Shown here piece by piece: positions 14,912 through 29,516 of a stretch of 44,316 bases of DNA. The position numbers and the translations under genes were made by a program. Origin of the DNA: Labilithrix sp. (GTDB lineage: Bacteria > Myxococcota_A > Polyangia > Polyangiales > Polyangiaceae); the NCBI GenBank assembly GCA_028287065.1, contig JAQBQJ010000378.1, positions 1 through 44,316 on the forward strand, read 5' to 3'. The first letter of the stretch is position 1; every line of letters starts with the position of its first letter. The notes below the pieces were generated by a model, which saw only the letters and a list, made by a program, of their open reading frames with translations, made no database searches and was not told where the DNA came from.

Positions 14912-15544
14912 TCACGGCTTGCCGGCCAGGACGAGGACGTACCGCGCTGCGCTGCACGACCGCAGGCCGCGATTCGTGTCGCACCGGTCGACCGCGAACG
15001 GCGCTCGTTCGCCCGCCGCGCCGCGGAGACCGAGCTCGCTGAGTGGGACCGTCAGCTCGATGACCCATTCCTCGTCGTCGTCGGACGGATCGTCGAGCGT
15101 GCCGTCATGATCATGGCCGACGCGCGTACCCGCCGGCGCACCGACGAGCTCCCCGGTTGCCGAGACCCCGAAGCTCACGGCACCGATCGTCACCCGGAAT
15201 TCGTCGCGGAGCTGGCCTCTCGTCCGGATGTCCGCGTCCGCTGCGTAGAGGGCGATGCTGATCCGGCCCTCTCCCCACACCACGCGGGCGTCGGAGTACG
15301 GCCGCGCCGCGCTGCCGCTCACGTCCAGGAACGCACCGGTGCGCGCGACGGCGCCATGCCACAAAGCGTCGTCGAGCTCCCCGTCCAGCTCGGGAACGGC
15401 GTCGACCTTCGGCACGGTGAGCTCGTGTACTGCCGCCGGCGCCGGGGCGATGGGCGGCCCCGGCTCTTTCCGCCACGTCCACGCCGTGACGCCGACCGCG
15501 ACAGCGGCCGCAGCGACCACGACGTTCGTCCATGGCTTGCTCAC
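14912..15544 (-). CDS. CBM9/DOMON-like secreted protein, membrane-anchored
   Basis: The 210-aa protein has an N-terminal membrane anchor (residues about 7-22, VVVAAAAVAVGVTAWT), then a carbohydrate-binding-module-9-like beta-sandwich. Its hallmark is VPELDGELDDALWHGAVART; WGEGRISIALYAADADIRTR and EEWVIELTVPLSELGL follow. In this superfamily the same fold binds sugars or, in DOMON/ethylbenzene-dehydrogenase relatives, haem. No binding residues can be identified with confidence. The GTG start overlaps the stop of the metallophosphoesterase gene by four bases (GTGA), so the two are coupled. The neighbouring cytochrome operon makes a redox role possible. Confidence 0.82.
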   Translation of the reverse strand: MSKPWTNVVVAAAAVAVGVTAWTWRKEPGPPIAPAPAAVHELTVPKVDAVPELDGELDDALWHGAVARTGAFLDVSGSAARPYSDARVVWGEGRISIALYAADADIRTRGQLRDEFRVTIGAVSFGVSATGELVGAPAGTRVGHDHDGTLDDPSDDDEEWVIELTVPLSELGLRGAAGERAPFAVDRCDTNRGLRSCSAARYVLVLAGKP

Positions 15545-17460
15545 GGGGCGGGGCTGCCGTCGGACTTCACGGCGAAGCGAAACGTCGTGTCGGTCGCGAG
15601 CGTCGCGTAGTCGAGCACGTCGACCTGGATCGCGTTGTCCGATCGCTGCTGGACGACCGCGAAGCCGTAGTTCTTGCTGCCGGTTGCTGGCGCGCCGCCA
15701 TTGCCGATGACCACCTCACGCGACGTCGCGAAGTGCTCGTAGGTATGCGTGTGGCCGACGAACGAGAGCGTGTACGGATGCGCCGCCATGATCTTCTCGG
15801 CCGGTGCGACGCCCGGCGCTTGCGTGACGGAGTGCGACTCGTGGCGGACCAGGAACGTGTACGTCGTCGGGATTGCGAGCTCGGCCTCGAGCCACGCGGC
15901 CTGCGCCGCACTCCAGGCGTTTGCCGCGACGATGACCGTCTTCGACGTCCAGCTGCCGTCGGCCGCGTCGACGCGAACGGCGTAGTACGGGTCGCTCTTG
16001 CCGATCGGGCCGAGCATCCTGTCCACGAACGCGGTGTAGTTGTTGGTGATGCCGTTCGCGCTGCCTGGACCGCAGTTCGACGCCGTCGCGCCGGTACATT
16101 CGTGATTCCCCATCGCGGCGAACGCGACGCCGGAATATTTCGCCCGGGCGCCGAGGTAGAGCTCGAGCTGCGGGCCCGACTGCGCTCCGAAGGGAGAAGC
16201 GAACATGTAGTCGCCTGTCCCGAGGACGAACGCAGGTCGCGGCGAGAGGCTCTCGATGTCCGTGTAGATCTTCTCGATGATCGCGGTCGGATAGCCTGTC
16301 GTGTCATCGATGCCTGCCGGACGCGTATCGCCCACGACGGCGAAATACACGCGGGAGCTCGTCCCGCCAGTGGCTCCGACGTTGCTCGTGACCGGCGCGC
16401 CCCCGTCGAACGCTGCACCGCCAGCCGCGCCGGCAGCGCCTCCGCAGCTCGTCGGCGGAGACTGGCAGCGGTTCGTCGCAGTGTTGCACCACCATCCGCC
16501 GAAGCATCCGTTGGGTTGGCAGGTCGATTTGCCTCTGCACGACGGACAGCTCGCGGCGGTCGGCGGCGGAACGAGCCCCGGACATGCCGCGGGTGTCGTC
16601 GCGCCGCTGTCGGCCATCGCCGGCGGCGTCGCGGCACACTCTCCCGCGCGCGCGACACACGCGTCGACCTGATCACCGGTGACGGTGCTGACGGACGTGC
16701 ACGCGCGGTCCGTCGCGCATTCGTTGCCCGCCGGACACGTGGGAGCGCAGAACGAATCGGAGCCGAGCTGGGCGCACACGCCGCCGTTGCAGTCCTGATC
16801 CGTGACGCACGGCGGACATGCGAGGCTCGCGGAAGCGTCGACACTCGGCGTGCCCGCTCCCGGAGTCGCGCTCGAGTCTCCGCAGCCGACCCATAGTGCC
16901 GTGGCGGCCATCGCGAACATCGCCGGCACCGTCGCGAGTCGGATCATCGGACGCCGTCGAGCGACGAACGCCATCGCACGAGACTGGCTGCGATGCGGTG
17001 ACGCGAACCACAAGACGGCGGCCGACGCACCGACTCCGCGCCACGCGTCCGCCCACGTCCACGACGCGAAGAACGCGGGAACGTGATCGAGCATGGGGAC
17101 CAGGTGCACGAGCGCGAGCAGGAGGCCGAGAGCGCTGGCGACGCGTCGCTCGCGCCAGATCGCGTGGATGAGACGCCGCTGCAGCGCACGGGGAAGCGCG
17201 AGGAGCGCAATGGCAACGACCGCCCCGAATGCTTTCCAGGCTTCGCTGAGCGACGGGGCCTCGAGGAAGAGGACGAGGTGTTTTCGCGCGGGAAACAGAT
17301 GGATGAAAGCCAGGCTGAAACCCAAGAACGTGAGGAGCGAACCGCGCGCGGTCTCGGGCGCTGCGTTGTCTGGCGGATGCATCGCGCCAGAATGTCCAGC
17401 CAGCGCGGGAGTGATCACGAGGGAGGCGGCGATCGGCGAAATGGCCGCGATGCAGATCAT
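15541..17460 (-). CDS. Membrane domain fused to Cys-rich metallophosphoesterase lipoprotein
   Basis: The 639-aa frame from ATG 17460 has two distinct parts. Residues 1-171 hold about five hydrophobic helices with His in FIHLF and LVHLVP, somewhat like small haem-binding reductase membrane domains. At residue 172 (ATG 16945-16947) a complete lipoprotein signal follows, MIRLATVPAMFAMAATALWV then GC. Counting from that Met, 44-104 and 134-168 are Cys-rich (CNGGVC; CQPNGCFGGWWCNT), and about 199-468 are a calcineurin-like phosphoesterase with GD (206-207), GD (245-246), GNHE (280-283), RHES (368-371) and GHTH (398-401), a full metal-binding set. The downstream part may be translated alone as a 468-aa lipoprotein. 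The Cys-rich part is nearly repeated in the gene at 23253. The substrate is unknown. Confidence 0.88.
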   Translation of the reverse strand: MICIAAISPIAASLVITPALAGHSGAMHPPDNAAPETARGSLLTFLGFSLAFIHLFPARKHLVLFLEAPSLSEAWKAFGAVVAIALLALPRALQRRLIHAIWRERRVASALGLLLALVHLVPMLDHVPAFFASWTWADAWRGVGASAAVLWFASPHRSQSRAMAFVARRRPMIRLATVPAMFAMAATALWVGCGDSSATPGAGTPSVDASASLACPPCVTDQDCNGGVCAQLGSDSFCAPTCPAGNECATDRACTSVSTVTGDQVDACVARAGECAATPPAMADSGATTPAACPGLVPPPTAASCPSCRGKSTCQPNGCFGGWWCNTATNRCQSPPTSCGGAAGAAGGAAFDGGAPVTSNVGATGGTSSRVYFAVVGDTRPAGIDDTTGYPTAIIEKIYTDIESLSPRPAFVLGTGDYMFASPFGAQSGPQLELYLGARAKYSGVAFAAMGNHECTGATASNCGPGSANGITNNYTAFVDRMLGPIGKSDPYYAVRVDAADGSWTSKTVIVAANAWSAAQAAWLEAELAIPTTYTFLVRHESHSVTQAPGVAPAEKIMAAHPYTLSFVGHTHTYEHFATSREVVIGNGGAPATGSKNYGFAVVQQRSDNAIQVDVLDYATLATDTTFRFAVKSDGSPAP

Positions 17461-17644
17461 TTTTCTACGCTCCGCCGTCGCTTTTCGTGATCACACCCCC
17501 CGCGAGCGGACCTTCACCGTGGGCATTCACGCCTTCGCTACGGCGACGCGACAACCGACGAGCGAAGCGTAGGCCGATGGCCTCCGGCGCCGGACAGGTG
17601 CGCACGCGCTGCGATCGGTGCTCGAGCCATTTGGAGGCCGCTTC

Positions 17645-18253
17645 ATGTCGATCCGTTCGTCGTTGCTTCTTCTTCTTCCCGTCGTCGGCGTTTGCGTTGC
17701 GACGGAGGCGTGCAGCTCGTCGACCTCGGCTCCGATCGCCTCCGGCGACGCGGGGAGCTCGGGAACCTCGGGCAGCTCCGGTGACGTGATGCACCCCCCG
17801 GATGCCGCCACGACGGACGGTTCCAGCGCCGGAGGAACCGCGTTGACGGGCAAGCTCGGCGCGCTCGGCGACGTGAAGCCGACGGTCTCGTCGCTGTGGA
17901 TTTCGAACAGCGGCGAGACGCTCGTCTACATGAGCTCCGCGCCGCTCACGTGCGAGCAGCTCAAGACATCGCGCTGGCTCGGGGCCGCAACGGCCGGGTC
18001 GCAGGTGATCGAGATCGTGATCCGGGGCGCACCCAAGGTAGGGGACGTCGCCGTGCCTCCGGGCGAGGTCAATTTCGCGCAGGGCGGGAAGTCGTCCTCG
18101 TACGAGGTCAACGCCGACTCGGGCAACATCACGTTCACGAAGGCGGAGGCGACCGGCGTCGTCGAGGGCACCTTGAGTGCGAGCTACGCGGGCGGCGACA
18201 CCGTCAGCGGGAGCTTCCACGCCGACTTCTGCGCCGGCGGACAGGGTTACTGA
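17645..18253 (+). CDS. Lipoprotein with Ser/Gly/Thr linker (202 aa)
   Basis: ATG 17645 is preceded by GGAGG at 17632-17636, and the N-terminus MSIRSSLLLLLPVVGVCVAT leads to a lipobox-like TEAC. A flexible linker (GSSGTSGSSG) follows, then a beta-rich domain of about 130 residues with two Cys (LTCEQLK and DFCAGG) near its ends. The layout resembles the lipoprotein at 43634-44257: signal, GTS linker, small beta domain, Cys near the C-terminus. It opens a tightly packed plus-strand cluster and ends three bases before a dihaem cytochrome gene. No enzymatic motif is visible. The 184-bp gap from 17461 to 17644 holds both divergent promoters but no clear boxes. Confidence 0.82.
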   Translation: MSIRSSLLLLLPVVGVCVATEACSSSTSAPIASGDAGSSGTSGSSGDVMHPPDAATTDGSSAGGTALTGKLGALGDVKPTVSSLWISNSGETLVYMSSAPLTCEQLKTSRWLGAATAGSQVIEIVIRGAPKVGDVAVPPGEVNFAQGGKSSSYEVNADSGNITFTKAEATGVVEGTLSASYAGGDTVSGSFHADFCAGGQGY

Positions 18254-18256
18254 GCG

Positions 18257-19249
18257 ATGACGACGATCCTTCGATCGGTATGCCTCGCGACAGTCGTCTC
18301 GATCTTCGCCGCCTCGGCATGCTCGAGCTCGAGCTCGAGCCCGAGCGGCGCGAACGGCGATGCAGGTGCAGGCGAAGCAGGCGCCGTCCGCACCGCGACC
18401 ACCGGCACGGTGGAGCGCGGTGAGTACCTCGTCGATCACGTCCTCGTTTGCGGCGTGTGCCACACGCCGAACGGTGCGGACGGCAAGCCAGACCTCACGA
18501 AGTACCTCGCCGGGAGCCGGTCCTACGACTTCACCGACAAGGACGGCACCATCGTGACGGTGAACGCGGAGAACCTCACGTCGCACAATCCGGAGGGGCT
18601 CGCCACGTGGACGGACGAACAGATCCGTACGGCGCTGACCGCGGGCATCGACGACGAGCACATCGCCCTCTACCCGATCATGCCGTACCCCGAATACTCG
18701 CTGCTCACGCGCGCGGACGTCGATTCGATCATCCAATACCTCCGCACGATCCCGCCGAACGACAACGTCGTCCCGAGCGACTATCCCTACTTCGACCAGA
18801 ATCCTCCGGCGCCGCCCGTCGACGGCTCGAAGATCCCGCACACCACGTTGCCCACGACCGACCCGGGCTACGCCGCCGCCGAACGCGGTCGCTATCTCGC
18901 GACCGCAGCCTGTCTGAACTGCCACACCGAGCAGCTCTCCGCGGACGTCCCCGACCTCGCCAAGGCGTTTGCCGGAGGCAAGAAGTACACGTTCGTTCGC
19001 GGCGCTCCGGTCAATACCTCCGCCAACATCACGCCGGATGCGACCGGCCTCGCGACGTGGAGCATCGACGACATCGTCGCAGCGTTGAAGACGAACACCG
19101 AGAAGGGCACCGGACGCGCGTTCTGCAACACGCATCCCGGCGGGCCCGAGCTCTACGGAAAGATGGCCGACAGCGACATGCGCGACATCGCGACGTACAT
19201 CCATACGCTCCCGCCTGTCGCGAACGGGCCCTTCAAATGCCTGCCGTGA
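18257..19249 (+). CDS. Dihaem cytochrome c lipoprotein
   Basis: The 330-aa protein has a lipoprotein signal ending at C22 (AASAC), a Ser-rich linker, and two cytochrome c domains. Each has a classical haem site: C65-GV-C68-H69 and C219-LN-C222-H223. Possible axial Met ligands include M142 in YPIMPYPEYS for the first domain and M312 in GKMADSDM for the second. Repeats between the domains (ENLTSHNPEGLATWTDEQIR and ANITPDATGLATWSIDDIV) show that it arose by domain duplication, as in the cytochromes that feed alcohol or aldehyde dehydrogenases. It would carry electrons outside the cytoplasmic membrane. It sits between a lipoprotein gene (3-bp gap) and a monohaem cytochrome gene (4-bp overlap). 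Confidence 0.93.
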   Translation: MTTILRSVCLATVVSIFAASACSSSSSSPSGANGDAGAGEAGAVRTATTGTVERGEYLVDHVLVCGVCHTPNGADGKPDLTKYLAGSRSYDFTDKDGTIVTVNAENLTSHNPEGLATWTDEQIRTALTAGIDDEHIALYPIMPYPEYSLLTRADVDSIIQYLRTIPPNDNVVPSDYPYFDQNPPAPPVDGSKIPHTTLPTTDPGYAAAERGRYLATAACLNCHTEQLSADVPDLAKAFAGGKKYTFVRGAPVNTSANITPDATGLATWSIDDIVAALKTNTEKGTGRAFCNTHPGGPELYGKMADSDMRDIATYIHTLPPVANGPFKCLP

Positions 19250-19680
19250 AGCGTTCCCCCTCGCTGTTCGCGGCCGTCGTCGCCATCGCGCTGGTGCCGA
19301 GCTGCTCGAGCCCGTCGTCCACGCCGGCAGAGCCCGGCACGTTCACGACCATCTATCCGCTCCTCTTCCCGGTGAGCACGAACGCGCGGTGCAACTTCTG
19401 CCACGGCCTGCCGGCGAACGAGACCAGCAACGGCAAGCTGTTCATGGGTACGGACAAGGCGACCGCCTACGCCGCGCTCATCGGCAAGCTCTCGACGGGC
19501 AACAAGTGCCCGAACGAGACGCTCGTCGTCCCGAACGATCCCGAGGGGAGCCTGTTCTACCAGAAGCTGACCGCGAGCCCGCCCTGTGGGAGTCGCATGC
19601 CGCTCGGCGGGACTCCGCTCTCGGGTGAACAGCTCGAGATGGTTCGAAGCTGGATCGCAGCCGGCGCGAAGGACGACTGA
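19246..19680 (+). CDS. Small monohaem cytochrome c lipoprotein
   Basis: I choose GTG 19246, which overlaps the preceding stop as GTGA and gives the signal MKRSPSLFAAVVAIALVPSC with a clear lipobox. An ATG at 19237, three codons upstream, is an alternative. The 144-aa product has one haem site, CNFCH, in NARCNFCHGLP. The C-terminal part, SRMPLGGTPLSGEQLEMVRS then WIAAGA, is typical of small cytochromes where the Met of MPLGG is the distal haem ligand. Two further Cys (NKCPNE and PPCGSR) may form a disulfide. It lies between dihaem cytochrome genes with overlapping starts and stops, so it belongs to one electron-transfer unit with them. Confidence 0.9.
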   Translation: MKRSPSLFAAVVAIALVPSCSSPSSTPAEPGTFTTIYPLLFPVSTNARCNFCHGLPANETSNGKLFMGTDKATAYAALIGKLSTGNKCPNETLVVPNDPEGSLFYQKLTASPPCGSRMPLGGTPLSGEQLEMVRSWIAAGAKDD

Positions 19681-20714
19681 TGCGCCGGCTCACGATCGCC
19701 GTGCTCGTCGCCACGATGGTCGACCTGTCGTGCTCGAGTAAGGCGGCGCCAGCGGACGCGTGCGTCGAGCCCGAGACCGGCTTGCCGACCGACGTCTTCT
19801 GCACGGGCCTCTACGCCAATCACGATCCGACGCAGCACTCGGCCGATGCTCTCGCGTACACGCCGGGCGTCGTGCTGTGGAGCGACGGGGCCGAGAAGCA
19901 TCGGTACCTTTACTTGCCGCCCTCGTCGACGATCGACACGTCGAACCTCGATGCATGGAAGTTCCCCGTGGGAACGAAGGCGTGGAAGGAGTTCCGCGTC
20001 GACGGCGTGCTCGTCGAGACGCGCCTCTTCTGGAAGCGCAGCGAGACGGCGTGGGACTCCGGCACGTATGTCTGGGATGCGGCCGGGACGACGGCGACGC
20101 TGAACACGGACCCGAAGGGAATCGTCCTTCCGAGCGGGTACGAGATCCCGAAGCAGAAGGACTGTGACAAGTGTCACCACGGCGGCTCCGACAGGCTGCT
20201 CGGCGTCGAGGCGGTCGCGCTCGCGTTGCCGGCCGCCGAAGGAGCGACGCTCACCGCTCTCGCGCAGCGCGGCTTGCTGAGCAAACCTCCCGCGACGACG
20301 ACGGTCGCGCTTCCCGAAGAGGCGAGCGGCAAGGCCGGCGCGGCGCTCGGATACCTGCACGCGAACTGCGGGATGCCGTGTCACTCGAGCCGCGGGCTCG
20401 GCGACGAGACCAAGCTCGTCCTCCGACTTCGGGCAGGCGAGCTATGGCCGGATGGCTCGTCGGGCGCCGCCGCGTCGGCCGTGTCGATGACCGACACGTT
20501 CAAGTCCACCGTCAACCAGGACCCTACGACGGCAGCCGTGGCGCAGGCGTTTCCGGGCGCGCATCGGATCACGCCCGGCGCTCACGACAAGAGCCTCGTC
20601 TGGCTGGTGTCGCACCTCCGCGGGAACTACCAGATGCCGCCGCTCGTCAGTCATCGCATCGACGACGTCGGAACTCAGCAGCTCGCGGACTGGATCGATG
20701 CATTGCCCAAGTAG
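19680..20714 (+). CDS. SO_2930-type dihaem cytochrome c lipoprotein
   Basis: The 344-aa protein has a lipoprotein signal (MRRLTIAVLVATMVDLSC). It resembles the SO_2930/HNE_0200 family of dihaem proteins: TPGVVLWSDGAEKHRYLYLP, FPVGTKAWKEF, ETRLFWKRSE and GTYVWDAAGTTATL. The first haem site is C162-DK-C165-H166. The second is C230-GMP-C234-H235, a CX3CH spacing where relatives usually have CXXCH; LGYLHANC before it and NYQMPPLVS near the end agree with a real cytochrome domain. The start overlaps the previous stop by one base (TGATG). The partner and reaction are unknown. The CX3CH site may still bind haem or may have lost it. Confidence 0.88.
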   Translation: MRRLTIAVLVATMVDLSCSSKAAPADACVEPETGLPTDVFCTGLYANHDPTQHSADALAYTPGVVLWSDGAEKHRYLYLPPSSTIDTSNLDAWKFPVGTKAWKEFRVDGVLVETRLFWKRSETAWDSGTYVWDAAGTTATLNTDPKGIVLPSGYEIPKQKDCDKCHHGGSDRLLGVEAVALALPAAEGATLTALAQRGLLSKPPATTTVALPEEASGKAGAALGYLHANCGMPCHSSRGLGDETKLVLRLRAGELWPDGSSGAAASAVSMTDTFKSTVNQDPTTAAVAQAFPGAHRITPGAHDKSLVWLVSHLRGNYQMPPLVSHRIDDVGTQQLADWIDALPK

Positions 20715-20744
20715 AGCGATGCGGATACGCATGCATGAACGTCG

Positions 20745-21830
20745 GTGAACCAACGTAGGCAACCTCGTCGCGCTGCGGTCGCGGTCGGCCTCGTTGCCGT
20801 GGCCTCGACGCTCACGCTCCACGCGGTCCGCGCCGACGACTTCGTGCTGGTGAAGATCGACTACGAGACGCGACCCGGATGTCCGGACGCCGACACGTTC
20901 GTCCGCGAAGTGCTGTCGCGCGCACCGCGCGCCCGCGTGGGCTCCGCGAGCGACGGCGCGCGCTCGCTCGTTGCGCGCGTGCGTGCGGGAGCGCGTGGAC
21001 TCGAAGGAGTGCTGTCGGTCCGCGACGCCGACGGGCACACGACGGAGCGCGCCGTCCATGGACAGCGTTGCGAGGAGCTGGTGACTGCGCTCGCCGTGAT
21101 CGCGGCGCTCGTCATCGACCCGCTCACCGCTCGTGCGGAGCCTTTCGAGCCGGATGCGGCCACCGGCACGACGGACGCAGCGACGACGGACTCTCCGGAT
21201 GCCGCACCGGCGGCGCTCCCGCAGCTCGACGCCGCAGCGCCGGAGGCCGCGCTCTCGGCCCCGACGGCCGATGGTCCGACCGGACATCCCGGCCCGGGCA
21301 CGAACGACGGATGGAAGACGTCCGCGGGGGCGGCGGTCGGCGTCGTCGGAGGCACCGCCCCCTCCGTGCTCCTCAGCATGCCCGTGTTCGTCGAGGTCTC
21401 GCGGCGCGCGGAGGCGATCGTCGAGCCGACCGCGCGGCTGCGCTTCGAACGCACGGCGGTCGGTGTGACGCGCAAGGGCGGCAGCGGCGGTGCGAGCTTC
21501 GTGAGGACCGTGGGAGCCGCCGATCTCTGCGCGATCGCGCTCCGCGGCCGTTCGATCCGCGCGCAGCCGTGCGCGCGGGCCGAGCTCGGCGGCGTCTATG
21601 CGAAGGGCCTCGAGATCGTACCGGCGCGCGGCGAGATGCGCCCTTGGCTCGCGCTGGGTCCGGTGGCACGTGCGCGCGTCGACGTCATCGGGCCGCTCTT
21701 CGTCGAGCTCGAGGCCGCTCTCCTGTTCGCGGTCGTCCGCGACAGCTTCTACGTGGAGCCGGGCACGCTCCTCTATCGTCCGCCCGCGCTCGGCGCTACG
21801 ACCGCTTTCGGCGCGGGACTGGCGTTTTGA
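20745..21830 (+). CDS. Exported protein of unknown function (361 aa)
   Basis: GTG 20745 gives a signal peptide (MNQRRQPRRAAVAVGLVAVA to about residue 30). A short domain follows with two Cys, TRPGCPDADTFVREVLSR and VHGQRCEELVTALAVIAALV, a pattern repeated in many myxobacterial secreted proteins. A Pro/Ala/Asp-rich linker (about 125-185) leads to a beta-rich C-terminal half whose alternating pattern (TARLRFERTAVGVTRKGGSG; ATTAFGAGLAF as last residues) suggests an outer-membrane barrel ending in Phe. It lies 30 bp after the cytochrome genes and overlaps the ECF sigma gene by one base (TGATG), so it belongs to the sigma-factor unit. The barrel is an inference. Confidence 0.78.
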   Translation: MNQRRQPRRAAVAVGLVAVASTLTLHAVRADDFVLVKIDYETRPGCPDADTFVREVLSRAPRARVGSASDGARSLVARVRAGARGLEGVLSVRDADGHTTERAVHGQRCEELVTALAVIAALVIDPLTARAEPFEPDAATGTTDAATTDSPDAAPAALPQLDAAAPEAALSAPTADGPTGHPGPGTNDGWKTSAGAAVGVVGGTAPSVLLSMPVFVEVSRRAEAIVEPTARLRFERTAVGVTRKGGSGGASFVRTVGAADLCAIALRGRSIRAQPCARAELGGVYAKGLEIVPARGEMRPWLALGPVARARVDVIGPLFVELEAALLFAVVRDSFYVEPGTLLYRPPALGATTAFGAGLAF

Positions 21831-22489
21831 TGATCAATCAGCCTCCCGACGAACATTGCACAGTGCACGGGATGGTTTCCGTCGCCGCGCCCACCGTCGT
21901 GATCGATGGACCTTCCGATGGCAGCCCCGTCGTGAGCGCGCCGGAGCGTCGACGTGCATTGTCGAGAGAGGACGCGACGCGCTTTCGGAGCATGGTGGAC
22001 GGTCACTTCGATTTCATCTGGCGCTCTCTGCGCGGCCTCGGAGTCCCTTCTGCGATGATCGACGATGCGGCACAGCAGGTCTTCTGGACGGCTTCGCAGA
22101 AGCTCGACACGATCGTCGTGGGGAGCGAGCGGTCCTTTCTGTTTGCAACGGCACGTGGCGTCGCGGCCAACGCGCGGCGCTCGCGACTGCGCAGTCGCGA
22201 GCTGCCCGACGAGGAAGCGGTCGCAAGCTATGCCGACCACTCTCCGGATCCGGAGCAGGTCGCGGCCTCACGCCAGGCGCGCCGGCTCCTCGATCGGATC
22301 CTCGACGGTCTCCCCGAGGAGCTGCGGGAGGTCTTCGTCCTGTACGAGCTCGAGGGACAGACCATGGCCGAGATCGCGACGCTGCTCGCGACCCCCACGG
22401 GAACGATCGCGTCGCGCCTCCGCCGCGCACGAGAGGAATTCCACACGGCGGCACGCCGTCATCAAGCCAACCGGGGGAACGAGACATGA
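21830..22489 (+). CDS. ECF-family RNA polymerase sigma factor
   Basis: This 219-aa sigma-70 family protein has region 2 around residues 50-110 (FRSMVDGHFDFIWRSLRGLG and DDAAQQVFWTA) and region 4 around 150-210 (LPEELREVFVLYELEGQTMA and TIASRLRRAREEF, the promoter-binding helix-turn-helix). Regions 1 and 3 are absent, as in ECF factors. An N-terminal extension of about 40 residues precedes region 2. The start overlaps the preceding stop by one base, and the stop overlaps the next gene by four bases (ATGA). The next gene encodes a membrane protein, the usual position of a cognate anti-sigma factor. Confidence 0.93.
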   Translation: MINQPPDEHCTVHGMVSVAAPTVVIDGPSDGSPVVSAPERRRALSREDATRFRSMVDGHFDFIWRSLRGLGVPSAMIDDAAQQVFWTASQKLDTIVVGSERSFLFATARGVAANARRSRLRSRELPDEEAVASYADHSPDPEQVAASRQARRLLDRILDGLPEELREVFVLYELEGQTMAEIATLLATPTGTIASRLRRAREEFHTAARRHQANRGNET

Positions 22490-23226
22490 GCGAGCCGCCG
22501 CGTCTTCTGGGCGATCCATCGGCAACGCCCTTCGAGCGTGATCTGCTTGCGTCGTGGGACACGGAGCAGCCGTCTGCGAGCGCTCGCGCGCGAGCGCTTG
22601 CGGTCGCGGGCGCCGCCGCGGGAACGCTTGCGGCCGCGGCGGGCACGGCCGCAGGGACGGCACCGAAGGCGGCGGCCGCCGGCGCCGGGGCGCTCACGAA
22701 GTGGGCCGTGGTCGGTGCGGTGATCGCCTCGACCGTCGGCGCCGGCGTGGTCGTGGCTCTGACGCGCGCGCCGCAGAGCGAGACGGCCGCTCCCGCAAAG
22801 GCGCCGGCAACGACGCTCGCCGTGCCCGTCGTCAGCACTCCGATCGCAGAGCCTCCGACGGTATCGCCCGCCGATCTCCCTACGGCGCCTGCGTCCGTGT
22901 CCATCACCCCAGCACCGTCGACGCCTCGTGCTCGCGCCTCGGCCGGGGAGTCGACGCTCAGCGAGGAGATCGCATCGTTCGATCGCGCGCGCGCCGCGTT
23001 CGATGCCGGGAGCGCCGACCAGGCGATTGCGCTCGTCGACGCCTATGAGAAGCGATTTCCTTCCGGGACGTTCATCCAAGAGGCCGAGGTCCTCCGGGTC
23101 GAAGCGCTCACACGCAAGGGCGATCGTGACGGCGCTCATCGCGTCGGACAGCGGTTTCTCGCCGCCCACCCCACCAGTCCGCATGCTGCGCGCATCCGCG
23201 CTATCCTGCACGCATCGACTCCGTAA
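22486..23226 (+). CDS. Putative anti-sigma factor with TPR-like periplasmic domain
   Basis: The 246-aa protein has a cytoplasmic N-terminus of about 70 residues, a single membrane helix (about 73-94, WAVVGAVIASTVGAGVVVAL), a Pro/Ala linker, and a C-terminal helical domain. The last part is TPR/YbgF-like: FDRARAAFDAGSADQAIALV, YEKRFPSGTFIQEAEVLRVE and GQRFLAAHPTSPHAARIRAI. It is coupled to the ECF sigma gene by ATGA, and its one-helix topology fits an anti-sigma factor that senses an envelope signal. The N-terminus lacks the HxxxCxxC zinc motif of ZAS anti-sigma factors, so the call rests on context and topology. Confidence 0.75.
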   Translation: MSEPPRLLGDPSATPFERDLLASWDTEQPSASARARALAVAGAAAGTLAAAAGTAAGTAPKAAAAGAGALTKWAVVGAVIASTVGAGVVVALTRAPQSETAAPAKAPATTLAVPVVSTPIAEPPTVSPADLPTAPASVSITPAPSTPRARASAGESTLSEEIASFDRARAAFDAGSADQAIALVDAYEKRFPSGTFIQEAEVLRVEALTRKGDRDGAHRVGQRFLAAHPTSPHAARIRAILHASTP

Positions 23227-23252
23227 CGCATTCCTCGGCTGCGCGTATCTTC

Positions 23253-23768
23253 GTGGTCGTCGCGGCAGCGGCGGTCGCGTCGTGCTCGTGGATCGCCTGT
23301 GGCACGAACGTCGACCTCGGCGGCACGGCGGACGCCGGCGAGGCGGACGGTTCGCAGAGCGCAGAGGAGCTCGTCGACGTGTGCGAGCCGTGCGCGACCC
23401 CTTCGGCGTGCCCGATGGGCGCCACATGCGTGCAGATCGCAGGCAAGAACACGTTCTGCGCGACGGTCTGTCCGAGCGCCGCCGAGTGTGACGGCGACGA
23501 CACGTGCGAGCTCGTCCGGACCACGACCGCCGAGACGATCCGCGCGTGCGTGCCGAAGGTCGGCGCTTGCGCGCCCGCGAAGGCGCCCGTCGTCGACAGC
23601 TCCGTCGTCGACCGGTGCGGAGGCCTCGACGGACCGACGCTCGCCTCCGTGTGCAGATCCTGCGACAGCGACGATCAGGGCTGCCAGCGCAACGGATGCT
23701 ACGGCGGATGGTGGTGCAACACGACGTTGCAACGCTGCGAGAGGCCACCCGCGACGTGTCCGTCCTGA
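23253..23768 (+). CDS. Cys-rich lipoprotein, free-standing copy of the phosphoesterase Cys-rich domain
   Basis: The 171-aa product is almost entirely the Cys-rich region also found in the phosphoesterase at 15541-17460. Cys positions match closely: CxxC at 44-47, C53, C69, C73, C79, C85, C99, C106, then C134-x2-C137, C144, C149, C155, C162 and C169, with NGCYGGWWCNT shared almost unchanged. A hydrophobic N-terminus with VASC suggests a lipoprotein, but GTG 23253 leaves no positive charge before the hydrophobic core, and Arg codons lie just upstream in frame; the true start may be a rare codon before 23253. The stop overlaps the PAP2 gene by one base (TGATG). Disulfide-bonded extracellular folding is likely. 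The function is unknown. Confidence 0.8.
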   Translation: MVVAAAAVASCSWIACGTNVDLGGTADAGEADGSQSAEELVDVCEPCATPSACPMGATCVQIAGKNTFCATVCPSAAECDGDDTCELVRTTTAETIRACVPKVGACAPAKAPVVDSSVVDRCGGLDGPTLASVCRSCDSDDQGCQRNGCYGGWWCNTTLQRCERPPATCPS

Positions 23769-24661
23769 TGGCCCGCGCCAGGCGCGCGGCGAGATTTCGC
23801 TCCGTCTTCGCCCTCGCGATTCTCTGCTTGGCGACGCGCGCCGAGGCCGACGACGAGGTCGAGTGGCACGAGGACTGGCCGCGCTTCCGCTGGACCGAGG
23901 GCGTCGCGACGGCGGGGTTCCTTGCCGCATCGTATGTCGAAGAACGTTACCTGCCCGGGCCTTCGTCGCCGAACTGGAGCGGCGGCATACTCCTCGACAA
24001 CCAGATCCGCGGCGTCCTTCGCGGCCGCTCGTTCCATGTCCAGACCGTCGCGACGAAGTACGCGGACGTCGGGTTCGCCACGCTCACGCTCTTTCCATAC
24101 TTCGACATCGCGCTCGTGCTCGGAGTGCATCGCAATCTCGACGTCGCAGCGCAGATGCTCCTCATCGACGCCCAGTCTCTCAGCTTCACGAGCAGCTTCA
24201 CGCTCTTCACAAAGTGGCTCGTCGGCCGCCAGCGTCCGTACGCGCGCGACTGCATGCCGGGCGGCACCGTCGGAGTCCACGCGTGCGGCACGACGTACGA
24301 CAACATCGGCTTCTTCAGCGGCCACACCTCGGCGACGTTCACCGGCGCGGCGCTCACGTGCGTGCACCACAAGCACCTGCCGCTCTACGGCGGCGGGCTT
24401 CCCGACACCTGGGCGTGCATCTGGGCGATGACGGGCGCGTCGGCGACAGCCGTGCTGCGCATCGTCTCGGACGATCATTACGCCTCCGACGTGATCGTCG
24501 CCGCCGGCGTTGGATTCCTCTCCGGCTACGTGTTGCCCTCGCTCCTGCACTACGGCTTCGGCCGAAAGACGCCGCCACCCCGACCCGGCTCGATGTACAT
24601 GGTGCCCACGCTGCTTCCCGTCGAGGGCGGGCTCGGCGTCGGGCTCGCAGGATCGATGTGA
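23768..24661 (+). CDS. PAP2-family phosphatase, exported
   Basis: The 297-aa protein has a signal peptide (residues about 1-27) and the three phosphatase motifs of the PAP2/acid-phosphatase superfamily: K149-x6-R156-P157 (KWLVGRQRP), S184-G185-H186 (FFSGHTSATF) and R231-x5-H237-x3-D241 (RIVSDDHYASD). Hydrophobic segments between them suggest a membrane-embedded lipid-phosphate phosphatase with the active site on the periplasmic face. The start overlaps the stop of the Cys-rich lipoprotein gene by one base, so the two are coupled. The equivalent Cys-rich domain at 15541-17460 is fused to a different phosphatase fold. The gene ends 10 bp before the convergent TolC-like gene. Confidence 0.93.
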   Translation: MARARRAARFRSVFALAILCLATRAEADDEVEWHEDWPRFRWTEGVATAGFLAASYVEERYLPGPSSPNWSGGILLDNQIRGVLRGRSFHVQTVATKYADVGFATLTLFPYFDIALVLGVHRNLDVAAQMLLIDAQSLSFTSSFTLFTKWLVGRQRPYARDCMPGGTVGVHACGTTYDNIGFFSGHTSATFTGAALTCVHHKHLPLYGGGLPDTWACIWAMTGASATAVLRIVSDDHYASDVIVAAGVGFLSGYVLPSLLHYGFGRKTPPPRPGSMYMVPTLLPVEGGLGVGLAGSM

Positions 24662-24671
24662 TCGGCCGCGC

Positions 24672-26015
24672 CTACTGCGCCGCCAGCTTCTCCGCGGTCG
24701 TCCCCATCGCCCGCTTCAACGCCGCTCGCGCCACCAGCTGGTCGTACAGCGCGGTCTGCATCTGGCCGCGTGATTGCGTCAGCAGGCCCTCGGCGTCGAT
24801 GACGTCGAACGACGTCGCTGCGCTCGCTTCGTAGCGCTTCTTCACCAGGCGGAAGTTCTCCTCCGCCGACGCGACCGACGCCTGCGCCACGACCATCGCC
24901 TCCGAGGCCGCGCTCAGCTCGAGGAACGCGCGGCGCACCTCGAGGCGGACCTGGTCCGAGATCCGCGTTCGCGCGAGCGTCGCCTGGTGGGCACGCGTCT
25001 TCGCCTCCGAGATGGCACTCGTGTTCGTGCCCCAGTCCCACACGTCCCACGATGCCTGCGCGCCGACGTACGCCGAGTTCGTTTGCACGAACTGCGAGCC
25101 CTCGTTGTGGATGTACGCGCCGACCACGTTCACCTGCGGCGCGAGCCTCAGCCACGCGACCTTCACCTCTCTGTTCGCCTGGTCGATCCGCTTGTCGACC
25201 TCGACGAGCTCGATGCGCTGCGCCTCCGCCGTCTTCTGCGCCTGATCGACCGTCACGGCTTCGCGCGACACGGAGCCCGTCTCCGGCGCGATGGGCTGCG
25301 GCTCGATCGACACGTCCGGAAGGCCGACGAGCACCGCGAGCCGTGCTTGCTCGAACAACACCCGCGCGCGCGCCTGGATCAGGCGCTGCTCCGCGTTCGC
25401 GACGGCGAGCTGCGCGCGGAGGACGTCGTCCTGGCTCACGACGCCGTTGTTGTGGAACGAGTTCGACTGCTTGAGCTGCGCCTGCAGCTGCTCGACCGAC
25501 GCCGCCGCGACCTCGACGAGCCGCTGTCCCTGCACGATGTGGTAGTAGCTCTCGACGACCCGGAACGCCGTGTCGCGGCGCGCCACCTCGCGCCGGATGT
25601 TCGCGATGTCGACGCCGAGGTTCCGCACCTTCAGCGCATCGACGATCGCGAAGAGCCCCGTGACCGGCTGGCTCGCCGACACCGTCACGTTCCACTCGAA
25701 CTGGTCGCGCACGGGGAAGGACTCGGCGCCGAACGGGATCTTGTAGGGCGAGTTCCACTCGTGCGCATACCCGTCGACGCGCACCGAGGGGCCGATGCGC
25801 CCGCGCGCGCCGGAGCGCTGAGCCTCGCTCACCGCGACCTCGTCCGCGGCGGACTGGACCTCGACGTTGTTCTTGAGCGCGAGCTCGACGCACTCGTCGA
25901 GGCGCATCCGGCGGGCGCTTGGATTGGCCTGCGCGTGGGCGGAAGACTCGGCCGAAGCCAGGGAAAAGACGGCGAGAAGTGCGGCTGCAACGCGGGGGAT
26001 CGTTCGACTGCGCAT
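24672..26015 (-). CDS. TolC-like outer-membrane efflux protein
   Basis: The 447-aa protein starts at ATG 26015, giving the signal peptide MRSRTIPRVAAALLAVFSLA; an upstream start at 26057 would prepend a tail with no signal features. Two outer-membrane-efflux-protein repeats follow: RRMRLDECVELALKNNVEVQ and SFHNNGVVSQDDVLRAQLAV in the first, and RISDQVRLEVRRAFLELSAA with LVKKRYEASAATSFDVIDAE in the second. Both have long coiled-coil stretches. As a trimer it would form the outer-membrane channel of the MFS/EmrA-like system coded divergently at 26066-29516. The promoter region is shared with the TetR gene and contains a palindrome. Confidence 0.93.
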   Translation of the reverse strand: MRSRTIPRVAAALLAVFSLASAESSAHAQANPSARRMRLDECVELALKNNVEVQSAADEVAVSEAQRSGARGRIGPSVRVDGYAHEWNSPYKIPFGAESFPVRDQFEWNVTVSASQPVTGLFAIVDALKVRNLGVDIANIRREVARRDTAFRVVESYYHIVQGQRLVEVAAASVEQLQAQLKQSNSFHNNGVVSQDDVLRAQLAVANAEQRLIQARARVLFEQARLAVLVGLPDVSIEPQPIAPETGSVSREAVTVDQAQKTAEAQRIELVEVDKRIDQANREVKVAWLRLAPQVNVVGAYIHNEGSQFVQTNSAYVGAQASWDVWDWGTNTSAISEAKTRAHQATLARTRISDQVRLEVRRAFLELSAASEAMVVAQASVASAEENFRLVKKRYEASAATSFDVIDAEGLLTQSRGQMQTALYDQLVARAALKRAMGTTAEKLAAQ

Positions 26016-26040
26016 GGAATCTGGTAGACAGTATACACAG

Positions 26041-26058
26041 GATGAATCAATATTCATC
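26041..26058. promoter_or_regulatory. Palindromic operator in the tolC-tetR promoter region
   Basis: GATGAAT (26041-26047) and ATTCATC (26052-26058) are perfect 7-bp arms around a CAAT spacer. A TATACT -10-like box reading towards the tolC-like gene lies at 26030-26035. A TetR dimer at this site could repress both divergent transcripts. The palindrome overlaps the ATG at 26042, which favours the internal ATG 26066 as the TetR start. Confidence 0.65.
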
Positions 26059-26065
26059 TTGCAAC

Positions 26066-26659
26066 ATGTCGGCTCATTCGCTGCGCGCGAGATTCAAGGA
26101 GACCGTCACCGGCGCGATCCTCGATGCCGCCGAAGAGCTCGCGGCCGAGGTCGGCGTTCCGGGCACGAATCTCCAGGCGGTCGCGAAGCGAGCGGGCGTC
26201 GCGGTCGGGACGATCTACAACCACTTCGAAGATCGCAACGAGCTGTTCGTCGAATTGTTCACGCGCCGGCGCGAGGGGCTCCTCGCCGCCGTCGACAGCG
26301 CGACGAAGGGTGCGTCGCGCAGCGGCTTCGATACGCAGCTCGAGGCGTTCGTGCACGCCGTGCTCTCGTACTTCGATACCAGGCGTACGTTCCTGCGCCT
26401 CGCGCTCGACGGGCAGACGCCGAAGCCGAAGGCGGGAAGCGCCTCCAACGCGATGGAGCAGCTCGCGCTCCGCGCCCAGCGCATCGTGAAGCAGGGCGTG
26501 AAGGAGAAACGTCTCCGCGCGGAAGCCGCTGGTCTCGCGCCGTACTTCCTGACGTCCGCGATCAAGGCGATCCTCATGACCCGCGCCGATTCAGCGGCGC
26601 CGCTCGCCGGGGAGACCGCCCGCGTCATCGACCTCTTCCTGAACGGGTCGGCACGATGA
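26066..26659 (+). CDS. TetR-family repressor of the efflux operon
   Basis: The 197-aa protein (ATG 26066; ATG 26042 would add eight residues) has the TetR helix-turn-helix in AILDAAEELAAEVG and NLQAVAKRAGVAVGTIYNHF followed by EDRNELF. The C-terminal part is a helical ligand-binding and dimer domain (about residues 70-197). It is divergent from the TolC-like gene and overlaps the MFS gene by four bases (ATGA), so it is the natural local repressor. The palindrome at 26041-26058 is its most likely operator. The ligand is unknown but is expected to be a substrate of the pump. Confidence 0.93.
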   Translation: MSAHSLRARFKETVTGAILDAAEELAAEVGVPGTNLQAVAKRAGVAVGTIYNHFEDRNELFVELFTRRREGLLAAVDSATKGASRSGFDTQLEAFVHAVLSYFDTRRTFLRLALDGQTPKPKAGSASNAMEQLALRAQRIVKQGVKEKRLRAEAAGLAPYFLTSAIKAILMTRADSAAPLAGETARVIDLFLNGSAR

Positions 26660-28275
26660 GCGCGGCATCGCCCACGTTCGACGCGCAGGCCCTGGCGGCA
26701 CCGGCGCCGGTCAACAAATGGCTGGTCACTGTCTCGATCGCCTTCGGCTCGCTCATGGCGTCGATCGACTCGTCGATCGTCAACGTCGCGCTGCCGCAGA
26801 TCCGCGGCGCCGTCGGCGCGACCATCGAGGAGATCACGTGGGTCTCGACGGCGTACATCATCGCGACCGTCCTCGTGATGCCGCTCACGGGCTTTCTCGG
26901 CACGTTCTTCGGTCAGAAGCGCGTGTACCTCGCGAGCCTCGTCCTCTTCGTGCTCGGCTCGGCGCTCTGCGGCCTCGCGCACTCCCTGCCGACCCTCGTC
27001 TTCTTCCGCGCGCTACAGGGCTTCGGCGCCGGTGCGCTCCAACCTACGCAGCAGGCGATCCTGCGCCAGACGTTCCCGCCGAAGGAGCAGGGCATGGCGA
27101 TGGCGATGTTCGCCATGGTCATCATGGTCGGTCCGGCCGTCGGTCCCACGCTCGGCGGATACATCGTCGACAACTACAGCTGGCAGTGGATCTTCTACAT
27201 CAACGTCCCGATCGGCGTGGTCGGCACGTTCATGACCTGGCGTTACGTCATCGAGCCGCCGGACGTCCTTCGCGCGAACCGCGAGCGCGCCGCAGCGCAG
27301 CGCAAGCACCTCGACATCGCTGGAATCGTGCTCATGTGCATCGGTGTCTCGACGCTGCAGTACGTGCTCGAGGAAGGCCCACGCGACGACTGGTTCGACT
27401 CGCCCGTCATCACCGGGCTATCGGCGCTCGCCGCCGTGTCGCTCGGCGCGTTCATCATCCGCGAGCTCACCGCCGTGGCGCCGGTCGTCAACCTGCGCCT
27501 CTTCCGCGACAAGACGTTCGCGTCCGGAACGGCGATCGGCGGCGTCATGTTCGCGATGCTCATGGGCAGCATGTTCCTCCTGCCGGTCTTCATGCAGGAG
27601 CTCCTCGGCTTCGACGCCACGCAGTCCGGCACGACGCTCATGCCGCGCACGCTCGCGATGATGGTCGTCACGCCCATCATCGGCCGTCTCTACAACCACG
27701 TACCGCCGGCGATCACCGTCGCGATCGGCGGGCTCTTCTTCGCGCTCGGCTCGTACCAGCTCAGTCACATCACGCTGATGAGCTCGTCCGCCGACATCGT
27801 CGTCCCGTTGCTCGTCACGGGCGTCGGCTTCGCGTGTCTCTTCATCCCGCTCACCACCGCCGCGCTCACGTTCATTCCGCGTCCCGAGCTCGCCGATGCC
27901 GCCGGCCTCAACTCGTTCGTGCGTCAGATCGGCGGCTCGTTCGGCCTCACGATCTTCGCGACGATGCTCTCCAACTACGGCAAGCGCGCGACCGCGTCGG
28001 TGGGCTGGCACGTGTCGAGCCTCCGCCCGGAGGTCGTCGCCCGCGCCGATGCGATGGCCAAGAGCTTCCAGGCCCACGGCATGAGCGCGATCGACGCGAA
28101 GCAGACGGCGCTGCGCGCGCTCGCGGGCCAGGTCGCTCGGGAGGGCACGGTCCTCGCGTTCGAGAAGACGTTTCTCCTCCAGGGGATCATCTTCCTCGCG
28201 GTGCTTCCTCTCCTCTTCTTCCTTCGCGTCGGCAGCGGTCCCAAGGCCGAGCACATCGAAATGACTATGGAGTGA
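26656..28275 (+). CDS. DHA2-family drug:H+ antiporter (EmrB/QacA type)
   Basis: The 539-aa protein has about 14 membrane helices with the motifs of the 14-TMS DHA2 group: DSSIVNVALPQI (motif D1) in the first helix, GFLGTFFGQKRVYLASL (motif A), RALQGFGAGALQPTQQAILR (motif B) and GPAVGPTLGGYIVD with WQWIFYINVPIG (motif C region). It would use the proton gradient to pump hydrophobic compounds from the inner membrane through an EmrA-like adaptor and a TolC-like channel, both coded here. The start overlaps tetR by four bases, and the adaptor starts two bases after its stop. Confidence 0.95.
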   Translation: MSAASPTFDAQALAAPAPVNKWLVTVSIAFGSLMASIDSSIVNVALPQIRGAVGATIEEITWVSTAYIIATVLVMPLTGFLGTFFGQKRVYLASLVLFVLGSALCGLAHSLPTLVFFRALQGFGAGALQPTQQAILRQTFPPKEQGMAMAMFAMVIMVGPAVGPTLGGYIVDNYSWQWIFYINVPIGVVGTFMTWRYVIEPPDVLRANRERAAAQRKHLDIAGIVLMCIGVSTLQYVLEEGPRDDWFDSPVITGLSALAAVSLGAFIIRELTAVAPVVNLRLFRDKTFASGTAIGGVMFAMLMGSMFLLPVFMQELLGFDATQSGTTLMPRTLAMMVVTPIIGRLYNHVPPAITVAIGGLFFALGSYQLSHITLMSSSADIVVPLLVTGVGFACLFIPLTTAALTFIPRPELADAAGLNSFVRQIGGSFGLTIFATMLSNYGKRATASVGWHVSSLRPEVVARADAMAKSFQAHGMSAIDAKQTALRALAGQVAREGTVLAFEKTFLLQGIIFLAVLPLLFFLRVGSGPKAEHIEMTME

Positions 28276-28277
28276 GC

Positions 28278-29516
28278 ATGGCAACGGCAGACGCAACGAT
28301 GGAACGTGCAACCAACGCGGGGACGGCCAACGCCGTTGCGCCCGCCGCCAGGAAGAAGAACGCCGCTCGGCCGTACATCATCTTCGGCGTGATCGTCGTG
28401 CTCGCAGCCGCGGGGTACCTGCTCTTCCAGATGCTCACGAAGGGCAAGGAGAGCACCGACAACGCGCAGGTCGGCGCCGACATGGTGCCGATCGCCGCGC
28501 GTGTCGGCGGCATGCTCGTCGCCGTGCCGGTCACGGACAATCAAGCCGTGAAGAAGGGTGATCTGCTCGCGCAGATCGATCCGAGCGACTACGAGAACAA
28601 GGTCAAGCAAGCCGAGGCCGAGCTGAGCGCCGCGCAGGCGCAGGCCGCCGCCGCGGACGCGCAGATGAAGATCGTGGCCGCCAGCTCGAAGGGCGGACTG
28701 TCGACGGCGCGCGCGCAGCTCTCCGGCTCGACGGTGTCCGTTGCCGGTGCGGACGCGCAGGTCGCCGCGGCCGAGGCGATGGTCGCGAAGGCTCGCGCGG
28801 ATGCCGAAAAGGCCGAGAACGATCTCCGTCGCGCGCAGTCGCTCCGCAAGGACGACGCGATCCCGCAGGCGCAGGTCGACAACCTCACTTCGCAGGCCGC
28901 GGCGATGCGCGCCGCCGTCGCGCAGGCCCAGGCGAACCTCGCGGCAGCACAGGAAGCGAAGAACAGCGCGCGCACGCGCATCGCGGAGGCCGCGGGCCGC
29001 GTCGAGCAGAGCGCCCCCGTCGACGCGCAGGTGGCGGTCGCGAAGGCGAACGCGGATCTCGCGGCCGCTCGCGCCGCCGCCGCCGAGGTCGCGCTCGCGC
29101 AGGCGAAGCTGAACCTCTCGTACACGAAGGTCGTCGCTCCGCAGGACGGCCATCTCTCGAAGCTCGGCGTCCACGCCGGCCAGCTGGTCCAACCTTCGCA
29201 GACGATCACCAACGTGCTGCCCGACACGACGTACGTCGTCGCGAACTTCAAGGAGACGCAGGTCGGCGACATGAAGGTCGGCCAGACGGCCGAGGTCTCG
29301 GTCGACGCATTCCCCGGGCGGACCTTCCACGCGAAGGTGGAGAGCATCTCGTACGGCACCGGCGCCCAGTTCTCGATGCTGCCGCCCGACAACGCGTCCG
29401 GAAACTTCGTGAAGGTCGTGCAACGCGTTCCCGTGAAGCTCGTCTGGACCGATTTGCCGCCGGATGTGCATCCCGAGGCCGGACTCTCGGCCGACGTGAC
29501 GGTGAGGCTGAAGTGA
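28278..29516 (+). CDS. EmrA/HlyD-family membrane-fusion protein
   Basis: The 412-aa protein has a short cytoplasmic N-terminus, one membrane helix (about residues 33-51, [19 protein letters not shown]), a biotinyl-lipoyl-like half ([20 protein letters not shown] and [20 protein letters not shown]), a long Ala/Gln-rich coiled-coil hairpin (about 105-270), the second lipoyl half ([20 protein letters not shown]) and a beta-barrel region ([20 protein letters not shown]). It bridges the DHA2 pump and the TolC-like channel. Its last codons overlap the next gene (GTGA), which is unusual because that gene is a nucleotide-kinase-like protein. Confidence 0.94.

Follow-up and report, generated by a model that had tools for sequence, protein, structure and literature searches.

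Two Cys-rich lipoprotein genes in a contig of Labilithrix sp. may encode the two ends of a single signalling circuit in the cell envelope, with a module and a regulon in common, a reading on which we consider the balance to be about even. The stretch analysed, 44,316 nucleotides and here termed the window, is one entire contig of a 7.09 Mb assembly of 577 contigs that is 72% complete. In the circuit envisaged, a small surface or periplasmic lipoprotein would be encoded together with CL3 (a putative outer-membrane protein), an ECF sigma factor and CL5 (a putative membrane-bound sigma partner), and the sigma factor would read GATCA-N15-GACAT promoters upstream of its own gene as well as of a metallophosphoesterase (MPE) operon. 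The MPE operon encodes a fusion of the same N and C modules with a purple-acid-phosphatase-like hydrolase; the modules would probably bind the same ligand in both settings, bringing the hydrolase to its substrate. The small protein would report the ligand through CL5, presumably an anti-sigma factor, so that the signal would run from lipoprotein to CL5 to sigma factor.

The named relatives used for comparison are Myxococcales and Polyangiaceae MAGs, including one labelled Byssovorax and one labelled only 'delta proteobacterium', and the order is taken to be Polyangiales because of these labels. C-module and MPE genes were surveyed in 377 genomes, and paired by position; the CL5 survey covered 193 genomes.

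A Cys-rich region in two copies

An earlier note on this DNA had reported about 18 Cys in the same order in both proteins, and 18 Cys together with the lipobox Cys do align in register. The CxxC pairs that it had placed at 44/47 and 134/137 are there in both, counting from the ATG at 16947 (reverse strand) and the GTG at 23253 (forward strand), as is the near-identical segment CQxNGC[FY]GGWWCNT. The proteins are 39% identical over 166 columns (BLASTP, E 9e-27). Since the Cys-rich parts score 291, far above 1000 shuffles in which the Cys were held fixed (mean 85, sd 18, maximum 155), the likeness exceeds mere Cys richness. The region consists of two modules, N with 10 Cys and C with 8 Cys and the sequence NGCYGGWWC. 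It was said to belong to no named family, and all Pfam families are indeed below cut-off on both Cys-rich parts. One candidate identity, Dickkopf_N (PF04706), was rejected: with an E limit of 10 the Pfam scan listed no match to it for either of the two window proteins, 1 of 28 relatives matches at E 0.0035, and all matches are below any threshold of trust.

One copy of the region begins the Cys-rich MPE lipoprotein (15541..16947, reverse strand; N module 16633-16818, C module 16444-16584, MPE domain 15544-16359). Its fusion to a calcineurin-like phosphoesterase, as the note had it, is supported at family level: the window protein matches PF00149 (Metallophos) at E 0.0021, its 18.9 and 19.8 bits being below the curated cut-off of 21.5, and 26 of the 28 members of its family do so at E 0.01 or lower (best E 6.8e-10). 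In the predicted model the domain has a purple-acid-phosphatase fold with conserved metal-ligand motifs, the ligands being assigned by motif. The usual motif of purple acid phosphatases is DxH, and the Tyr ligand of their purple iron site lies in GDxxY. The window family has DTR in place of DxH and is without the Tyr, having GDYxF with Phe 249 invariant in 28 of 28 members, an assignment made by alignment to GDNFY of the rat enzyme in a weak part of that alignment. The window family also differs from purple acid phosphatases and PF00149 metallophosphoesterases (1ute, Rv0805, GpdQ) in its Cys-rich lipoprotein N-terminus.

The MPE reading frame is open up to 17460. A lipobox Cys matches residue 22 (from 16947) in 28 of 28 aligned homologues, which supports the start at 16947 in part, because homologue starts were picked to give a lipobox. 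In frame with it, across a stop-free junction, is a small membrane protein (16948..17382, reverse strand; several hydrophobic stretches by eye), which in both L065 and L066 has a homologue (phmmer 3e-23 and 4.7e-22) encoded separately, directly 3′ of the MPE gene; the in-frame run is either a genuine fusion or due to loss of a stop codon. On the other side CL2 (14912..15544, reverse strand; no Pfam match) overlaps the MPE stop, and a CL2 homologue adjoins the MPE gene in six other loci (L050, L055, L058, L061, L063 and L070).

The small lipoprotein and its sigma operon

The second copy is on the small lipoprotein (23253..23768, forward strand; predicted model with pLDDT 77), with a lipobox and the tag CGTNVDLGG at 23298-23324, the N module at 23382-23573 and the C module at 23616-23759. 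The start is uncertain: the closest homologue, that of L049, has its start farther upstream, where an ATG overlaps the stop codon of CL5, and the matching stretch of the window (23200-23260 region) is without ATG, GTG or TTG. In seven genomes (G000, G007 with L049, G020 with L051, G072 with L052, G045 with L059, G058 with L060 and G044 with L072) the small lipoprotein ends an operon of CL3, ECF sigma factor, CL5 and lipoprotein. The first gene, CL3 (20745..21830, forward strand), has, by eye, a signal peptide and a barrel-like C-terminus, and gives no Pfam match; the family is present in 7/7 of the small-protein operons and upstream in 59 of 71 CL5 loci. The product of the second (21872..22489, forward strand; start placed from the dyad described below) is identified as an ECF sigma factor by homology to the L049 orthologue, in which Pfam gives Sigma70_r4_2 at E 1.7e-15, above cut-off, and region 2 at E 0.0041, below it.

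CL5 (22486..23226, forward strand) consists of an N-terminal segment, one hydrophobic stretch and a YfiO/TPR-like C-terminus, the Pfam values (YfiO 1.3e-4, TPR 4.2e-4) both being below cut-off; a Pfam scan of the whole protein gave no anti-sigma match and no RsgI anti-sigma domain. The CL5 family is present in 143 of the 193 genomes, at up to 13 places per genome (13 being the number scored), and its seven best places there (at least 249 bits, the next having 180) are the seven small-protein operons.

The small proteins of L059 and L072 (2 of the 7) have the C module only. C-module genes at L081, L082 and L088 have no sigma operon nearby, and the locus at L067 is interrupted by a contig end. 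The gene after the small protein is CL1 (no Pfam match; propeller-like by eye) in L049, L052 and L072, unrelated in L051 and L060, and a Cys-rich MPE gene in L059, where sigma operon, C-module lipoprotein and MPE gene are consecutive. In L052 the MPE gene is divergent from CL3. A Cys-module MPE occurs in 6/7 operon-bearing genomes as against 8/186 others (Fisher p 3e-7); G020 has the operon and no MPE match.

All seven small proteins have C-x3-V-x-LGG after the lipobox. In the form C-x(2-4)-[VI]-x(0-2)-LG the tag is present at 28 of 68 other CL5 loci as against 9 of 478 control genes (p 9e-21), and in a looser form at 45 of 68 as against 22 of 478, a tagged start being sought between 63 bases upstream and 250 bases downstream of the CL5 stop and the loci being the best-scoring places plus those of the own genome, a non-random set with some closely related members. 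With the seven small ones, the tagged proteins number 35 and fall into 17 body groups (BLASTP). Pfam scans of 10 + 5 tagged bodies gave GH8, Endostatin/DUF1554, DUF7305/adhesive, Stig1, Peptidase_S74, PD40 and a weak SBBP propeller, with no match in 8. One tagged body group is directly after ECF sigma/CL5 operons in L170, L176, L179, L192, L195, L202, L203 and L206; L170, the sole member of it scanned, is GH8 by Pfam. A wider reading, toward which we are tentative and on balance disinclined, is of a plug-in sensor platform of Polyangiales present in many copies (CL3, ECF sigma factor, CL5 and tagged lipoprotein), in which the tag would dock exchangeable bodies to a trans-envelope sigma switch; the Cys-rich protein would be one such plug-in, with its module shared by a sigma-controlled hydrolase.

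A promoter-like dyad before both operons

The dyad GATCA-N15-GACAT was discovered by comparing regions upstream of CL1, MPE and CL3 genes, where it sits a few bases before start codons. An exact copy in the window (17392..17416, reverse strand) is 9 bases before the ATG at 17382 of the operon of small membrane protein, MPE and CL2, and a copy with one mismatch, GATCA-N15-AACAT (21832..21856, forward strand), precedes the sigma gene; the start at 17382 and the stretches searched before sigma genes were placed after the dyad had been seen. GATCA-N15-GACCT (17489..17513, forward strand), also with one mismatch, is a weak candidate about 134 bases from the ATG at 17648 of a lipoprotein gene ending at 18253.

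In 41 loci a spacing of 15 gives 14 matches, where base shuffles predict 0.15; the remaining spacings from 8 to 25 give 0 to 5. Sigma genes, which like the start of the window MPE operon were outside the discovery set, have the dyad with at most one mismatch in 7/7 cases (5 exact, 2 with one mismatch). Within the discovery set it is exact before 5 of 8 CL1 genes, and in the seven genomes it precedes 4 of 9 MPE genes, the window being counted (exactly in the window and L052, with one mismatch in L059 and L057). Among 350 other genes serving as control, 5 have it with at most one mismatch, 3 of these being sigma genes counted from called starts. Exact half-sites at spacings of 15, 18 and 12 number 42, 23 and 15 in the seven genomes and 3, 3 and 3 in the own genome; as the dyad is there no more numerous than the controls, the evidence is one of position and not of number. 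By simple arithmetic, 3 x 120 / 14.2 million strand positions, the chance of one of three dyads being within 120 bases before the MPE operon comes to about 3e-5, for a start chosen post hoc.

The other 5 of the 9 MPE genes in the seven genomes are without the dyad, as are all of the MPE genes of other genomes (0/21), and the MPE family is therefore independent of this sigma factor. Neither was the dyad found before the C-module cytochrome genes dealt with below. Additional exact dyads lie 9 to 75 bases upstream of lipoprotein-like genes at L240, L244, L251, L257 and L258, which are possible further regulon members. The dyad is plausibly the ECF promoter of this sigma factor and, given its presence before sigma genes and its exact occurrence before the window MPE operon, both Cys-rich copies probably belong to one sigma regulon. 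Taken together, the module and dyad in common, the neighbouring genes in L059 and L052, and the co-occurrence across genomes point to one regulon with the module on both a lipoprotein and a hydrolase.

Even with a common regulon, the small lipoprotein could be the main product of the sigma operon and not its sensor, its tag being a putative surface address, perhaps via CL3, and the MPE another product of the same sigma factor. We judge this rather unlikely, and it draws on the presence of likely enzymes such as GH8 among the tagged lipoproteins after CL5, on 10 of the 30 distinct exact dyads that were read in context preceding lipoprotein-like genes (7 are inside genes), and on a post-lipobox export signal of Bacteroidetes which is likewise a short conserved motif near the lipoprotein N-terminus. 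However, that signal (PMC5080379) is acidic (K-(D/E)2 or Q-A-(D/E)2), whereas the window tag, C-x3-V-x-LG, is without an acidic motif near the lipid-bearing Cys.

Other partners of the modules

In relatives the modules come apart. The commonest arrangement is N+C+MPE, and there are also N+MPE (L068, L070), C+MPE (L097, L104) and N+2C+MPE (L095, L101, L103). C modules are alone on small proteins, e.g. in L059 and L072; in L071, L074, L077 and L078 the C module is part of a cytochrome c fusion (by CxxCH; Pfam was run for L077 only). N-like modules were seen by eye on trypsin-like and alpha/beta-hydrolase-like proteins; L123, in the own genome, is a trypsin-like lipoprotein with an N-like Cys module at its C-terminus by eye. 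Between the two Cys-rich genes of the window (18257-20714, forward strand) are a cytochrome c gene (Pfam, 18257-19249) and, by eye, two more haem-motif or related genes.

The varied partners of N-like modules, together with 8 places in the own genome at which a looser N-module search gives E 0.1 or better (both window copies included) and the low-confidence linkers that flank the modules in predicted models, is what a generic Cys-rich stalk or adhesion module without specific ligand might look like, the two copies being spacer paralogues and the dyad reflecting common envelope control only. We find this a little more doubtful still, as the C module is at only two places in this genome (72% complete), both within the window, and residues besides Cys, NGC-[YF]-GGWW, are also kept between the two copies.

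The small lipoprotein was also described as coupled by a TGATG overlap to a PAP2 phosphatase, and the overlap of stop and start is present at 23766-23770 (PAP2 gene 23768..24661, forward strand; Pfam E 2e-10, above cut-off). Its standing as an independent second pairing was not supported by comparison: PAP2 is beside the small protein in 0/6 other operon genomes, the PAP2 homologues of all six being on other contigs, and the conserved neighbour is the ECF sigma operon, so that the PAP2 next door looks incidental. What stands of the phosphatase link is that a phosphatase fold is the usual companion of the C module, MPE fusions accounting for 26 of the 35 genes that carry it; that most hits in the survey do have a phosphatase partner is because of this one fusion lineage. 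The proposed place at the cell surface is upheld to the extent that both proteins look like lipoproteins. Beside the region, at 24672-29516, are by eye outer-membrane efflux, TetR-like, MFS and HlyD-like genes. That the domain itself assists phosphate-ester hydrolysis, as the MPE fusions, the predicted fold and the PAP2 overlap would suggest, is improbable, given the unconserved PAP2 pairing, C modules on cytochrome c or alone, N-like modules on proteins of other kinds and 16 of 42 MPE places without a C-module match.

Relation to known systems and implications

For a circuit in which lipoprotein and hydrolase share module and regulon, the nearest working model, by analogy, would be biomass sensing by SigI/RsgI, whose sensors share (binding) modules with the enzymes they control, as sensor and controlled enzyme would do here. 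A further likeness is in several sigma factors per genome with their own promoters, as described for Clostridium thermocellum (PMC6056542). Unlike SigI/RsgI, the module is here on a separate tagged lipoprotein, the envelope is Gram-negative, the sigma factor is of ECF type and CL5 is not RsgI-like.

Myxobacteria have many ECF sigma factors, and to our knowledge few of the signals for them are known. In the present case the shared promoter-like dyad suggests that both lipoprotein genes, neighbours in a soil-type myxobacterium, belong to a single sense-and-respond system. Where a promoter dyad, a lipoprotein tag and a module common to lipoprotein and target enzyme occur together, signal and regulon would become guessable from sequence, and the guess testable, for a whole group of sigma factors.
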